From: Terriglobales bacterium
GTDB taxonomy: Bacteria; Acidobacteriota; Terriglobia; Terriglobales; Acidobacteriaceae
NCBI GenBank assembly: GCA_035624455.1
Contig: DASPRM010000037.1
Coordinates: 1 to 34,664 of the forward strand
Direction: 5' to 3'
DNA length: 34,664 bases
Made by a program: the position numbers and the translations under genes. Under the pieces are notes generated by a model. The model saw only the letters and a list, made by a program, of their open reading frames with translations. It ran no database searches and had not been told where the DNA came from. This document shows positions 6,301-31,097 of the stretch, one piece after another (position 1 is the first letter of the stretch; each line of letters starts with the position of its first letter).

Positions 6301-6636
6301 TTGTCGCAGACTCTCAAAGACATCGTGCGCTGCCCGCATTGTGGAGGCTCGGAGATTGTGTATTCTTGCGAGCCGAAGTGCTGCTTCAACCACGTCTGTG
6401 CCGACTGCCGCAGCACGTTTGAACTTAATACGAAGAAGACCGGCCGTTTCGATCACCAAGCGCAGATTGCCGCCCAGGAGCCATCCTCCGGCGAGCCCAC
6501 CACCGGCTGCGCCAACTGCGAGAGCCTGCAAATGGCGGTGCTCAGTTCAACCTCGGAGGAAACGCTGTTGGTGTGCGGCAACTGCCGCTCCGTCCTGTCG
6601 CTGGCGGTAGAGGAGTTCGTTGCGGGGGCGTTTTAG
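6301..6636 (+). CDS. Small zinc-ribbon protein of unknown function
   Basis: A 111-residue protein. It has CPHC near residues 11-14, a CCxxxxCxxC cluster near 27-36 (KCCFNHVCADC), and a second CxxC pair late in the chain (CANC, CGNC). This arrangement suggests two zinc ribbons joined by a polar linker, which are nucleic-acid- or protein-binding modules rather than an enzyme. The start is TTG at 6301: no ATG or GTG lies in frame before the first cysteine pair except a GTG almost on top of it, and upstream in-frame codons offer only CTG. The Shine-Dalgarno is weak. It is transcribed divergently from the broken secreted protein at 4770-6178. There is no family name I can assign. Confidence 0.72.
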   Translation: MSQTLKDIVRCPHCGGSEIVYSCEPKCCFNHVCADCRSTFELNTKKTGRFDHQAQIAAQEPSSGEPTTGCANCESLQMAVLSSTSEETLLVCGNCRSVLSLAVEEFVAGAF

Positions 6637-6685
6637 TTAATCAGCATTCAGCATTCAGCACGGGCATTCAGTCAAATTCAAGACG

Positions 6686-6907
6686 ATAGCACTCAGCATT
6701 CAGCAATCAGCTTCCACTGTCATCCTGAGCGAAGCGCCCGGGTCATCATCCGAACCGCGTTTTTGCGGTTCGCGGGCGCTGAGTCGAAGGATCTTGCGTT
6801 TTCTTAGCATTCTCAAACCCTGTCTCAGCCGCACGTCCAGATCCCCAATCATTTTCCATCATGTTCGGCTGACTGCTGAATGCTGATTGCTGATTGCTGA
6901 ATGCTAT
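6686..6907. repeat. Inverted heptamer arms around a cruciform repeat, between the zinc-ribbon gene and kdsC
   Basis: The 300-bp spacer 6637-6937 has no gene. The arm at 6686-6711 is built of CAGCATT-like heptamers, and the arm at 6882-6907 is its reverse complement with three mismatches in 26 positions. More loose heptamer copies lie at 6641-6665. The arms enclose the dispersed cruciform repeat at 6718-6805. The right arm ends 30 bases before the kdsC start, so the promoter of kdsC must lie inside or beyond the element. It resembles a MITE or a long imperfect hairpin; mobility is inference. Confidence 0.7.
6718..6805 (+). repeat. Dispersed cruciform repeat, copy 1
   Basis: Begins TGTCATCCTGAGCGAAGC and ends GTCGAAGGATCTTGCGTTTT. 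Inside, GCGCCCG (6734-6740) pairs with CGGGCGC (6773-6779), and CGAACCGC (6751-6758) pairs with GCGGTTCG (6765-6772) around a T-rich loop, giving a nested hairpin. Related copies are at 22450-22531 (opposite strand), 26617-26706 and 30950-31045. The outer ends are conserved and the inner hairpin sequence differs between copies but stays palindromic, which suggests selection on or descent of structure. Confidence 0.8.
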
Positions 6908-6937
6908 TTTGTGCAAAGCACCATTTACAATCCCTGC

Positions 6938-7576
6938 ATGTCACGAGAGCGCGCAAAGAAGATCAAGCTGATTCTCTTCGATGTGGACGGCGTAATGACC
7001 GATGGCGGCATTTGGCTGTTCCCGGCGCCCGCCGGCACACAGGAGTTGGGCCCACAGAAGTCGCGGCATGCCGACAAGGGTGGGTACGCCATCCACAGCG
7101 CCACTATGATCGAAGCCAAGGGCTTTCATGCGCACGACGGCGCGGGCATGTCGCTGGCACGGCTGGGCGGACTGAAGGTCGGGGTCATCACCAAGCGGAT
7201 CTCAGAGACGGTGGTGCTGCGGGCGCGCGATCTGCGTCTCGACTACGTGTATCAGGGAATCTCAGACAAACTGACGGTGCTTTACGAAATTGTAGAGAAA
7301 GAAGGTATCCGGCCGGAGAACGTTGCCTATGTCGGCGACGACGTGATCGATCTGCCGATCATGCGGCACTGTGGGCTGGCGATTGCCGTGCGCAATGCAC
7401 GGGAGGAGGTCAAGGACGAATCCCACTTTGTCACCGATCACCGCGGCGGCGAAGGCGCGTGCCGCGATGCCATCGAGTACGTGCTGCGCGCCCAGGGAAA
7501 GCTCGAGCAGGCGGTCGCGGCGTACATCGGCGAGCGCTCACCAAAACCGGCGGAGAAAGAGACCGCAAAGAAATAA
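6938..7576 (+). CDS. kdsC: 3-deoxy-D-manno-octulosonate 8-phosphate phosphatase (KdsC-like HAD hydrolase)
   Basis: Removes the phosphate from KDO-8-phosphate, the third step of CMP-KDO synthesis for the LPS inner core, in the cytosol. The 212-residue chain has the HAD motif I FDVDGVMTDG with nucleophile and acid Asp15 and Asp17, motif II in the VITKR region, and motif III/IV GDDVIDLP. A stretch of about 27 residues after the first motif (around FPAPAGTQELGP) is longer than in short KdsC proteins. The start chosen is the ATG at 6938, which places motif I at the usual distance from the N-terminus; the upstream in-frame ATG at 6887 falls within the repeat arm. A general HAD-IIIA phosphatase with another substrate is possible, but kdsD and kdsA in the same window support KdsC. 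Confidence 0.88.
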   Translation: MSRERAKKIKLILFDVDGVMTDGGIWLFPAPAGTQELGPQKSRHADKGGYAIHSATMIEAKGFHAHDGAGMSLARLGGLKVGVITKRISETVVLRARDLRLDYVYQGISDKLTVLYEIVEKEGIRPENVAYVGDDVIDLPIMRHCGLAIAVRNAREEVKDESHFVTDHRGGEGACRDAIEYVLRAQGKLEQAVAAYIGERSPKPAEKETAKK

Positions 7577-7577
7577 C

Positions 7578-7702
7578 AATCGGCAATCAGCACTCAGCAT
7601 TCAGCCAAACCCAACCCAACCACCGAGGCACGAAGGGAGAGTACTGCAGAGATCAGCTGAAGATCGGGCGGATTGCTGAATGCTGATAGCTGACTGCCGA
7701 TT
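7578..7702. repeat. Heptamer-armed inverted repeat directly after kdsC
   Basis: The left arm 7578-7605 and the right arm 7675-7702 are reverse complements over 28 bases with three mismatches. Both are made of CAGCATT/CAGCAAT-type heptamers. They flank a 69-base core with no coding sense. The left arm starts two bases after the kdsC stop codon, so the transcript end could fold as a long hairpin. It may act as a 3'-end stabiliser or be a small non-autonomous mobile element. Confidence 0.78.
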
Positions 7703-7705
7703 GCG

Positions 7706-7754
7706 AAAAACAACCCCCCGCGTTCGCTTGGGGCGTTGAGGATGAACGCGGGGG
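7706..7754 (-). terminator. Rho-independent terminator of the TPR gene
   Basis: Read on minus, CCCCCGCGTTC (7754-7744) pairs perfectly with GAACGCGGGGG (7725-7715), an 11-bp GC-rich stem with an 18-base loop. TTGTTTTT follows at once (7713-7706). It lies about 100 bases beyond the stop codon of the minus-strand TPR gene and points the right way to end it. Confidence 0.82.
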
Positions 7755-7857
7755 TCACCGTTTCCCCTTACTCACTGTCGCTTTCAGGAGGCTGGAATCT
7801 TCAAACTCCGAAGCGGGAAGAAAGTTGCGGATCGCACCGGAATTTTAACTCCTTTGT

Positions 7858-16772: not shown

Positions 16773-16812
16773 GTTAAATCGCTAATTGCTAAATGCTGAC
16801 TGTTTTTTCAGC
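16773..16812. repeat. Short heptamer tract at the convergent gene ends
   Basis: CGCTAATTGCTAAATGCTGACTG is a diverged tract of the GCTGATT heptamer. The following TTTTTTCAGC lets GCTGA pair with TCAGC across a T-rich loop. It lies between the reductase stop and the permease stop. It may help end the plus transcript, but the stem is short. Confidence 0.45.
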
Positions 16813-19729: not shown

Positions 19730-19789
19730 GGCGGCTCCATCTGGTTAAGAAGATAGCTTGGGGCGCGGGAGAATACAAAAGTTAGAGAG

Positions 19790-19890
19790 CACTTGGCAGT
19801 CAGCACTCAGCCAAAGCGAAAACCGAGGAAAAAGGCGCGTTGTGGGAAACTGCAGATCCCTCGTCGCAGTGATTACTGATTGCTGAGTGT
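19790..19890. repeat. Heptamer-armed inverted repeat downstream of kdsD
   Basis: CTTGGCAGTCAGCACTCAGCC at the left and GATTACTGATTGCTGAGTG at the right are partly complementary (11 of 14 over the best segment). They enclose about 55 bases starting AAAGCGAAAACCGAGG. The overall plan is the same as at 7578-7702 but more decayed. It ends six bases from the kdsD stop codon. Confidence 0.55.
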
Positions 19891-19895
19891 TCTTC

Positions 19896-20885: not shown

Positions 20886-21070
20886 ATGCACTCAGCACTC
20901 AGGAGTCAGCATTCAGCACTCAGTAATCAGGGCTTAGCATTCAGCGCTCAGTAATCACTTTGCAGCGACACTTTGCGTGAGGCGGAGAAAGCTTGTGTGG
21001 GACAGGCAATCTTGCCTGTCCATCTTCATTCAAGTCGAGACCTTGCGATCGTAGCTGATTGCTGAATTCT
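20886..21070. repeat. Heptamer tract and palindrome upstream of kdsD
   Basis: A long heptamer run (CAGCACTCAGGAGTCAGC onward, 20889-20958) faces a short reverse arm GCTGATTGCTGAATTC at 21053-21068. Between them, GGACAGGC (21000-21007) pairs with GCCTGTCC (21014-21021), a perfect 8-bp hairpin that extends to 10 bp with AA/TT. The 267-bp gap between kdsD and the secreted protein at 21129 has no gene. Confidence 0.65.
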
Positions 21071-30892: not shown

Positions 30893-30949
30893 GAGCAAAC
30901 AGCAGTCAAATTCAGCAATTAGCCCTTAGCAGTTAGGACAAAATCCGAT

Positions 30950-31045
30950 TGTCATCCGAGCGACGCGCTCGGCTTGCTCTTTTGACCCCTATGTTTCGCG
31001 GGTCGCGGGCGCGGGGTCGAAGTATCTTGCGTTTTCTGTCACTTC
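30950..31045 (+). repeat. Dispersed cruciform repeat, copy 4
   Basis: TGTCATCCGAGCGACGCGC starts the copy and GGGGTCGAAGTATCTTGCG with TTTTCTGTCAC ends it. GACCC and GGGTC surround a T-rich loop. Heptamer remnants lie at 30899-30936 just before it. Together with the next element it fills most of the 233-bp gap between ahcY and the Smr-domain gene; no gene is present. Confidence 0.78.
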
Positions 31046-31060
31046 AATTATGCGCCGCTG

Positions 31061-31097
31061 CCCAGGTTCGCGCCGCGCTTTTCGGCGCTAACCTGGG
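31061..31097. repeat. Palindrome of the CCCAGGTTAGCG family, left of the Smr gene
   Basis: CCCAGGTT (31061-31068), a C-T mismatch, then GCGCCG pair with CGGCGC and AACCTGGG (31083-31097): 14 pairs with a seven-base loop. It lies 29 bases beyond the stop codon of the minus-strand Smr gene, so it could act as its transcript end, though no U-run follows on minus. The related palindrome at 31579-31615 is upstream of the same gene. Confidence 0.75.

Follow-up and report, generated by a model that had tools for sequence, protein, structure and literature searches.

Intergenic arrays with a seven-base period flank a kdsC-like gene in the window (the whole 34,664-nucleotide stretch of DNA analysed). 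Comparison within and between genomes established the period of seven, an inward polarity, anchoring to stop codons and inverted pairing, the last for a third of the arms in this genome and for most arrays at kdsC loci. It also established that the heptad letters are exchanged between genera at one site, with both arms agreeing. We read these features, tentatively and with somewhat less than even confidence, as intergenic stem-loops at the ends of genes, formed by paired heptad arrays, that act in RNA and are renewed in place. The arms would be tandem arrays of fixed seven-base pitch (here TCAGCNN), and an inverted partner about 7–270 bases further on would allow the transcript to fold into a long hairpin. 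Such a hairpin may work at the RNA level, either where transcripts end or in the gaps between cistrons, and there protect the message upstream of it or bring it to an end. The arms would be renewed in place through slippage and a fold-back step in which one arm is the template for the other, not through transposition.

Heptad arrays in the window and their abundance

The genome containing the window comprises 4.39 Mb in 166 contigs and is coded G000; G codes denote genomes, g codes genera and L codes the loci compared, with G058 and G059 being class-level relatives of G000. Relatives of kdsC in named genomes belonged to Acidobacteriota in 30 of 32 cases, mostly labelled Acidobacteria, Acidobacteriaceae or Terriglobales, and G000 probably has the same affiliation. 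The features of the window are collected in Table 1.

Table 1. Heptad arrays, paired elements and the kdsC-like gene, in window coordinates
Feature	Position	Strand	Remarks
Heptad array, 3 TCAGCNN units	6641-6659	+	4 nt past stop codon of ORF 6301-6636
Element 1 left arm, AGCNN + TCAGCNN units	6686-6711	+	sequence comparison of arms
Element 1 core, middle part an independent dispersed repeat of GTCATCCTGAGC...GAAGGATCTTGC type	6718-6804	.	whole-genome search
Element 1 right arm, 5 exact units + outer partial unit	6868-6907	-	end 30 nt upstream of kdsC start
kdsC-like gene, HAD-family phosphatase, 212 aa	6938-7576	+	
Element 2 left arm, immediately past kdsC stop codon	7577-7605	+	
Element 2 core	7606-7674	.	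no further genome copy among 40 of 74 candidates scored
Element 2 right arm	7675-7703	-	
Single heptad array, short convergent spacer	16781-16799	-	10 and 8 nt to both stop codons
Weak left arm, degenerate, opposite 19870-19893	19786-19809	+	
Weak right arm, degenerate heptads	19870-19893	-	
Weak left arm, within longer degenerate array	20908-20923	+	
Weak right arm, two units	21055-21070	-	
Single array, 6 nt past stop codon	28040-28058	+	
Single array, 19 nt past stop codon, then diverged core-1 repeat copy	30912-30930	+	

The initial annotation had described the element 1 arms as inverted over 26 bases with 3 mismatches. The inverted match was recovered at 6686–6711/6882–6907, with a count of 2 mismatches over 26 nt. 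The element 2 arms (7578–7605/7675–7702) match over 28 nt with 3 mismatches, as claimed. The best 26-nt inverted match in the window at a spacing of up to 300 reaches 24/26, compared with 18–20 in eight shuffles of 2-mers, and an 18-base heptamer pattern with up to 3 mismatches has 17 matches against 0.04 expected. The weaker pairs reported near 19790–19890 and 20886–21070 are present, though degenerate (local scores 9 and 11; shuffled flanks of 57 exact arms average 6.7). That annotation mentions neither the arrays beginning at 6641, 16781, 28040 and 30912 nor the fact that arms are anchored to stop codons. A separate 40-nt inverted repeat, 85% complementary with its arms 475 nt apart, lies at 31061–31100/31576–31615, and both of its arms contain a shorter inverted repeat of their own. 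A plasmid collection search gave no match, and Rfam covariance models gave 0 matches, i.e. no known Rfam RNA family.

Read from the sequence, the TCAGCNN unit has five fixed and two variable letters and no G-tract. The pattern TYAGCNNTYAGCNNTYAGC with at most one mismatch has 245 matches genome-wide in G000 (100 were listed, exact ones first) and its reversed control has 1. Exact matches occur in 36 of the 61 genomes searched, G000 among them. A wider TYRGC pattern has at least one match in 166 of 200 family members, many genomes with 0–5 matches being not above their own control. Two period-7 arrays were found in stretches of genus g79 and five in stretches of g66. In unselected G000 contigs (165 kb), two inverted repeats are present, neither with period 7, and the 46 kb of non-coding DNA contain no period-7 array. 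The reversed control pattern CGRYTNNCGRYTNNCGRYT itself matches 134 + 130 times in G132 (genus g71), which suggests a second abundant heptad type in that genome.

Array counts are highly uneven within genera (g27: 221 in G115, 0 in G149; g9: 127 in G214, 0 in G106). Such unevenness favors a neutral by-product, in which period-7 slippage plus fold-back or template switching at replication would produce arrays that persist as harmless and functionless sequence. We regard this as possible but rather doubtful. It is in keeping with work cited in the excerpted text of PMC4692102, according to which many bacteria have an excess of heptameric repeats and slippage of the polymerase has been proposed. 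Against it, in none of four sets did neighboring units resemble each other significantly more than units in shuffled order, and in G058 they were less alike (2/45 identical; 138 of 5000 shuffles as low), unlike fresh slippage products. Fresh slippage was rejected on this ground.

Placement at gene ends and inverted pairing

Placement was counted on a gene map from our own simple codon-model caller. Among 57 arms in G000 (two arms at contig edges excluded), 39 have a gene 3′ end behind them at a median distance of 9 nt, and a stop codon lies within 25 nt behind 35. When arms are placed and oriented at random within the same spacers, the count is 9.0 (sd 2.1, maximum 17, 2000 trials). The corresponding counts are 6/20 in G058 (0.8 expected), 10/24 in G059 (3.3 expected) and 4/7 in the g66 stretches (0.6 expected). 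Sorted by gene end, the G000 arms within 25 nt number 35 behind a 3′ end and 8 behind a 5′ end, compared with 4 in front of a 3′ end and 0 in front of a 5′ end. Arms thus sit at spacer edges and are directed inward. The neutral by-product does not predict stop-codon anchoring with a fixed inward polarity. The excerpt of PMC13155455 places the peak of perfect inverted repeats in bacteria 50–80 bp past stop codons.

Spacers with arms are tandem in 24 cases, convergent in 21 and divergent in 5. Arm-free spacers of at least 60 nt are distributed 42, 15 and 20 in the unselected contigs and 78, 16 and 39 at element loci, in the same order. In G059, seven of 12 elements occupy short spacers of 77–104 nt between two genes, two of 12 lie between divergent genes, and in three, judged by eye, the outer unit is fused with a TAG stop codon. 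The same fusion is found 3′ of kdsC in g7, g84 and g92. Some right arms end a few bases short of the next start codon. Arguing against the hairpin are the elements between divergent genes (5/50 spacers), the right arms near start codons and the 165 kb of unselected sequence free of period-7 inverted repeats.

Neighboring arms no more than 400 nt apart are overwhelmingly arranged '+ then −' (TCAGC...GCTGA): 5/6 in G000, and 9/9 in G058 and 15/15 in G059 among the matches listed. Pooled over the three genomes, with the same restriction for G058 and G059, 29/30 are '+ then −', 1 is '+ then +' and 0 are '− then +', and the inverted pairing on which the annotation was built is therefore above chance. 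In G000, 18 of 57 arms have a partner inward of them on the opposite strand that matches at least 12 of the 15 fixed letters. The same count gives 0 on the outward opposite strand, 4 on the inward same strand and 5 on the outward same strand. Inverted pairs are real, yet they are a minority in G000, where about two thirds of the arms are single. The hairpin is therefore not the whole story, and neither the singles nor the number seven is accounted for by it.

Own arms were also compared with swapped arms. Own arms match better in G058 (0 of 5000 swaps reach the observed value; 4 of 5000 when G-U is counted), whereas in G000 and G059 (n=12 each) letter matching beyond the consensus is no better than for swapped arms. 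Letter-by-letter co-variation of arms inside one genome reached significance in G058 alone of these three and was set aside as a general property. Sets mixing genera (4 and 8 of 1000 shuffles) mainly reflect differences between genera.

The excess of singles over pairs in G000 suits the neutral by-product. It also suits the idea that each unit is a single-strand site of about seven bases for a putative OB-fold or cold-shock-type protein (or Rho), with pairing secondary: most G000 arms are unpaired, yet are anchored past stop codons on the sense strand. A precedent is CspB, of which, according to the excerpt of PMC4679880, a single molecule binds to each heptamer with only weak specificity for its sequence. 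We nevertheless consider single-strand sites unlikely.

One site, many heptads: the kdsC locus

A kdsC match was present in 184 of 200 genomes, and from these the kdsC loci of 70 genomes in 33 genera, G000 included, were chosen. They comprise 30 best matches and 40 hand-picked loci, mainly from multi-species genera and many of them array-rich. An array detector blind to sequence was run for periods 4 to 15 over 260 nt past the kdsC stop codon. Period-7 arrays were present in 13/70 of these 3′ spacers (9 genera), which is not the frequency of a random sample because the loci were chosen. The other periods gave 0–2/70, apart from the multiple 14 (9/70), and shuffles at most 0.1. Upstream of kdsC a period-7 array occurs in 15 spacers (8 genera), compared with 0–1 for other periods and 11 for period 14.

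Over the whole loci, 50 period-7 arrays were found in 14 genera. An inverted partner lies within 350 nt of 30 of these (10 genera), and a direct second copy accompanies 3. This preponderance of inverted over direct partners, across heptads, is not predicted by single-strand sites; the retention of the period while letters change speaks for them. The paired heptads are of at least seven kinds, including TYRGCNN, AGGAGGC, GGTTGTC, TTCGCTN, GTTGCTA, TTGGTAN and GCTCTCC. For 15 arrays with a right-hand partner, an equally good match was found in only 0–3 of 38–48 flanks from other genera. Since other-genus flanks so rarely match as well, the arms agree within a locus and differ between genera. Variation of letters and lengths by genus at one site is also what the neutral by-product would lead one to expect.

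The site is variable in other respects. No period-7 array lies 3′ of kdsC in the loci of g24 (5), g71 (4) or g22 (1). In g28, the same site carries by eye a TCAGC-type pair, unpartnered short arrays, a TTTCAAG-type inverted pair or no element, and in the g79 3′ spacer one non-heptad cassette is exchanged for another. Arrays upstream of kdsC in g66 have ends that align across three species, with changes mostly at the variable letters (by eye). In Acidobacteriaceae bacterium SbA1 (L057:3609-3804), the heptad element 3′ of kdsC is tandemly duplicated with a unit of about 100 bp.

Intergenic heptamer arrays have been described piecemeal before and discussed as G-quadruplexes or slippage products; a literature search found no description of such arrays in Acidobacteriota. 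The excerpted text of PMC4692102 reports G-rich heptameric repeats, GGGAATC and GGGGA(C/T)T, in Xanthomonas and Nostoc, intergenic and discussed as G-quadruplexes. As described there, they prefer positions on the sense strand no more than 50 bp from a stop codon, or on the antisense strand ahead of ORFs, and are under-represented between divergent ORFs; the excerpt gives no established function for them. Convergent inverted pairs number 70 and 75 in two Xanthomonas genomes and are few in Nostoc, and the repeats often accompany the same genes with varying length and sequence between species (same excerpt). The Xanthomonas type, the closest known system, resembles the present arrays in its seven-base intergenic units, its polarity rule and its convergent inverted pairs. 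It differs in its G-tracts: TCAGCNN lacks one and its arrays cannot form G-quadruplexes, has two variable letters and forms long stems, and at least seven heptads occur across genera here, of which one, AGGAGGC, is G-rich. A quadruplex account is therefore not general, because the same layout is found with G-tract-free letters and, around a single orthologous gene, with seven or more different heptads. The excerpt also reports transcript starts and stops to be more frequent at quadruplex-capable repeats than at others, and because this link is stronger for the quadruplex-capable type, a plain hairpin is not favored by it.

Two further systems are comparable. The P6b stem of the Nostoc trnL intron consists of heptanucleotide repeats, TDNGATT or NNTGAGT, whose class has been replaced repeatedly (excerpt of PMC4476775). 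It shares with the present arms a degenerate-heptad stem with variable letters, in which the class is swapped and the stem retained, and differs in being one locus inside a group I intron rather than many intergenic sites. The TAACTGA repeats of Beggiatoaceae, as excerpted from PMC4679880, are likewise intergenic heptad arrays near gene ends; they differ in being direct repeats, with one inverted set reported, mostly upstream of start codons.

A broader rule might be that several phyla keep seven-base-step inverted arrays at gene ends whatever the letters, as something that handles nucleic acid in seven-base steps would make or read them, with the letters free provided that both arms change together. 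We consider this rule rather improbable. The questions of why seven, why stop codons and why inverted become testable across genera.

RNA folding, mobility and turnover

The initial annotation had offered two explanations, RNA hairpins at transcript ends and a non-autonomous, MITE-like mobile element. The hairpin is the better of the two, and its function would be in the transcript. Folded as RNA, element 2 reaches −55.4 kcal/mol (z −6.1) and the entire spacer that contains element 1 −106.8 kcal/mol (z −5.7), with 0 of 200 shuffles as good in either case; the stretch 6682–6831 as a whole is only marginally more stable than its shuffles (z −1.3). In 7/35 pairs (3/11 in G058, 2/12 in G059 and 2/12 in G000, including element 1 of the window), four consecutive T are found no more than 15 nt behind the stem on one strand or the other. 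Since such a run is found in only 7/35, most pairs are not standard intrinsic terminators.

A mobile element of MITE or REP/BIME-like type, whose terminal inverted repeats would be the arms, would explain the arm-core-arm plan and the presence/absence variation at orthologous sites. Its terminal inverted repeats are indeed there, although variable in length and letters; copies sharing ends and interior were not found among the candidates scored for the two window elements. No match spanning both arms of element 1 was found in the whole G000 genome among the 40 of 187 candidates scored, which include at least 33 further matches to the middle and at least 9 to the arms. One copy of the core-1 repeat (30903–31037) covers a left-arm-like array and the middle at 73% identity, and counts for mobility. 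The middle of core 1 is accordingly a dispersed repeat that travels without the arm pair, because no scored match spans both arms. This repeat of about 87 bp (6718–6804) holds a perfect inner stem. For element 2, at least 13 further matches among the 40 of 74 candidates scored were all to arms, extending a few bases beyond at most, so that core 2 is without a further copy in that set. The cores of 12 G059 elements are mutually unrelated, and some cores in G000 and G058 share short pieces that appear by eye to be other repeats. The suggestion that the arms rather than the cores are the common unit is borne out.

Target-site duplications showed no excess over swapped flanks for 35 elements (12 + 12 + 11) in G000, G059 and G058; 98, 372 and 112 of 500 swaps, in the three genomes, reach the observed mean. 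The left arms that align in three species at the g66 site also speak against mobility. The MITE reading is not supported, given the missing duplications, the lack of two-armed copies among the candidates scored and the unrelated G059 cores, and we consider any mobile element very improbable.

REPs are fixed palindromes of 20–40 nt linked to Y1 transposases. The present elements resemble REP/BIME sequences as post-gene intergenic palindromes, with the dispersed repeat of about 87 bp inside some cores. They differ in having period-7 arms in place of fixed palindromes and in the lack of a copy with both arms among the candidates scored (40 of 187 for element 1, 40 of 74 for element 2). Spread of REP/BIME units by Y1 transposases finds no support in the arms, which are period-7 arrays of varying length in place of a fixed palindromic unit. 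Matches to Y1_Tnp, listed for 200 genomes, number 4 in G000 and 0 in G162, an array-rich genome with 290 array matches. G162 is a counterexample to a Y1 transposase as driver and weighs against mobility.

Closely related genomes were compared for empty sites (G138/G162, 91% identical over 48 kb aligned; G129/G207, 87% over 30 kb). The variation between orthologous sites expected of an insertion is real at the kdsC site, but heptads are replaced there too, and no clean empty site for an arm-core-arm element was found in either comparison. A four-unit TYRGC array of G162 begins 9 nt past a stop codon, at the very point up to which G138 is homologous. It is no clean element insertion, because a segment of about 1.86 kb with two genes differs along with it. 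In an array common to G207 and G129 the unit next to the stop codon is retained, and the units further away are of GCTAA type in one genome and of ACTAA type in the other. Renewal in place would lead to such a pattern, and the remaining spacer homology stops at that array. In both cases viewed, two only (L235-L236/L233-L234 and L221/L218-L219), homology stops inside the stop-proximal array or at its edge, as though the rapidly changing portion of the spacer were bounded by it. Overall, the pattern looks like in-place inheritance with fast turnover, rather than transposition of an arm-core-arm unit. Many spacers of G138 and G162 (L217-L224) differ by whole inverted-repeat cassettes, by eye of the GTCATCCTGAGC, CACGGAG and CCCGCCC types, and one type sometimes supplants another. 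The variation of these other cassettes, in the same spacers of 91% identical genomes, is a point in favor of mobility.

A candidate conserved structured RNA was observed just past element 2, on the minus strand of the window at 7698–7791 (L127:2259-2354:-). Its layout is CTCCTGAAA..GTGAGTAAGG..CGCCCCAAGC with a variable stem of 12–14 bp, and a U-tract mostly follows. Compensatory changes occur in 7 of 21 pairs in 25 aligned loci (alignment A1, from which L142 was left out as a false match), and a loop GGGU/ACCC match, seen by eye, suggests a pseudoknot. Rfam gave no hit to the candidate at any E value up to 1. Its model R1 was found in 13 of 41 genomes, once each in 12, and the candidate lies 3′ of a TPR gene convergent with kdsC.
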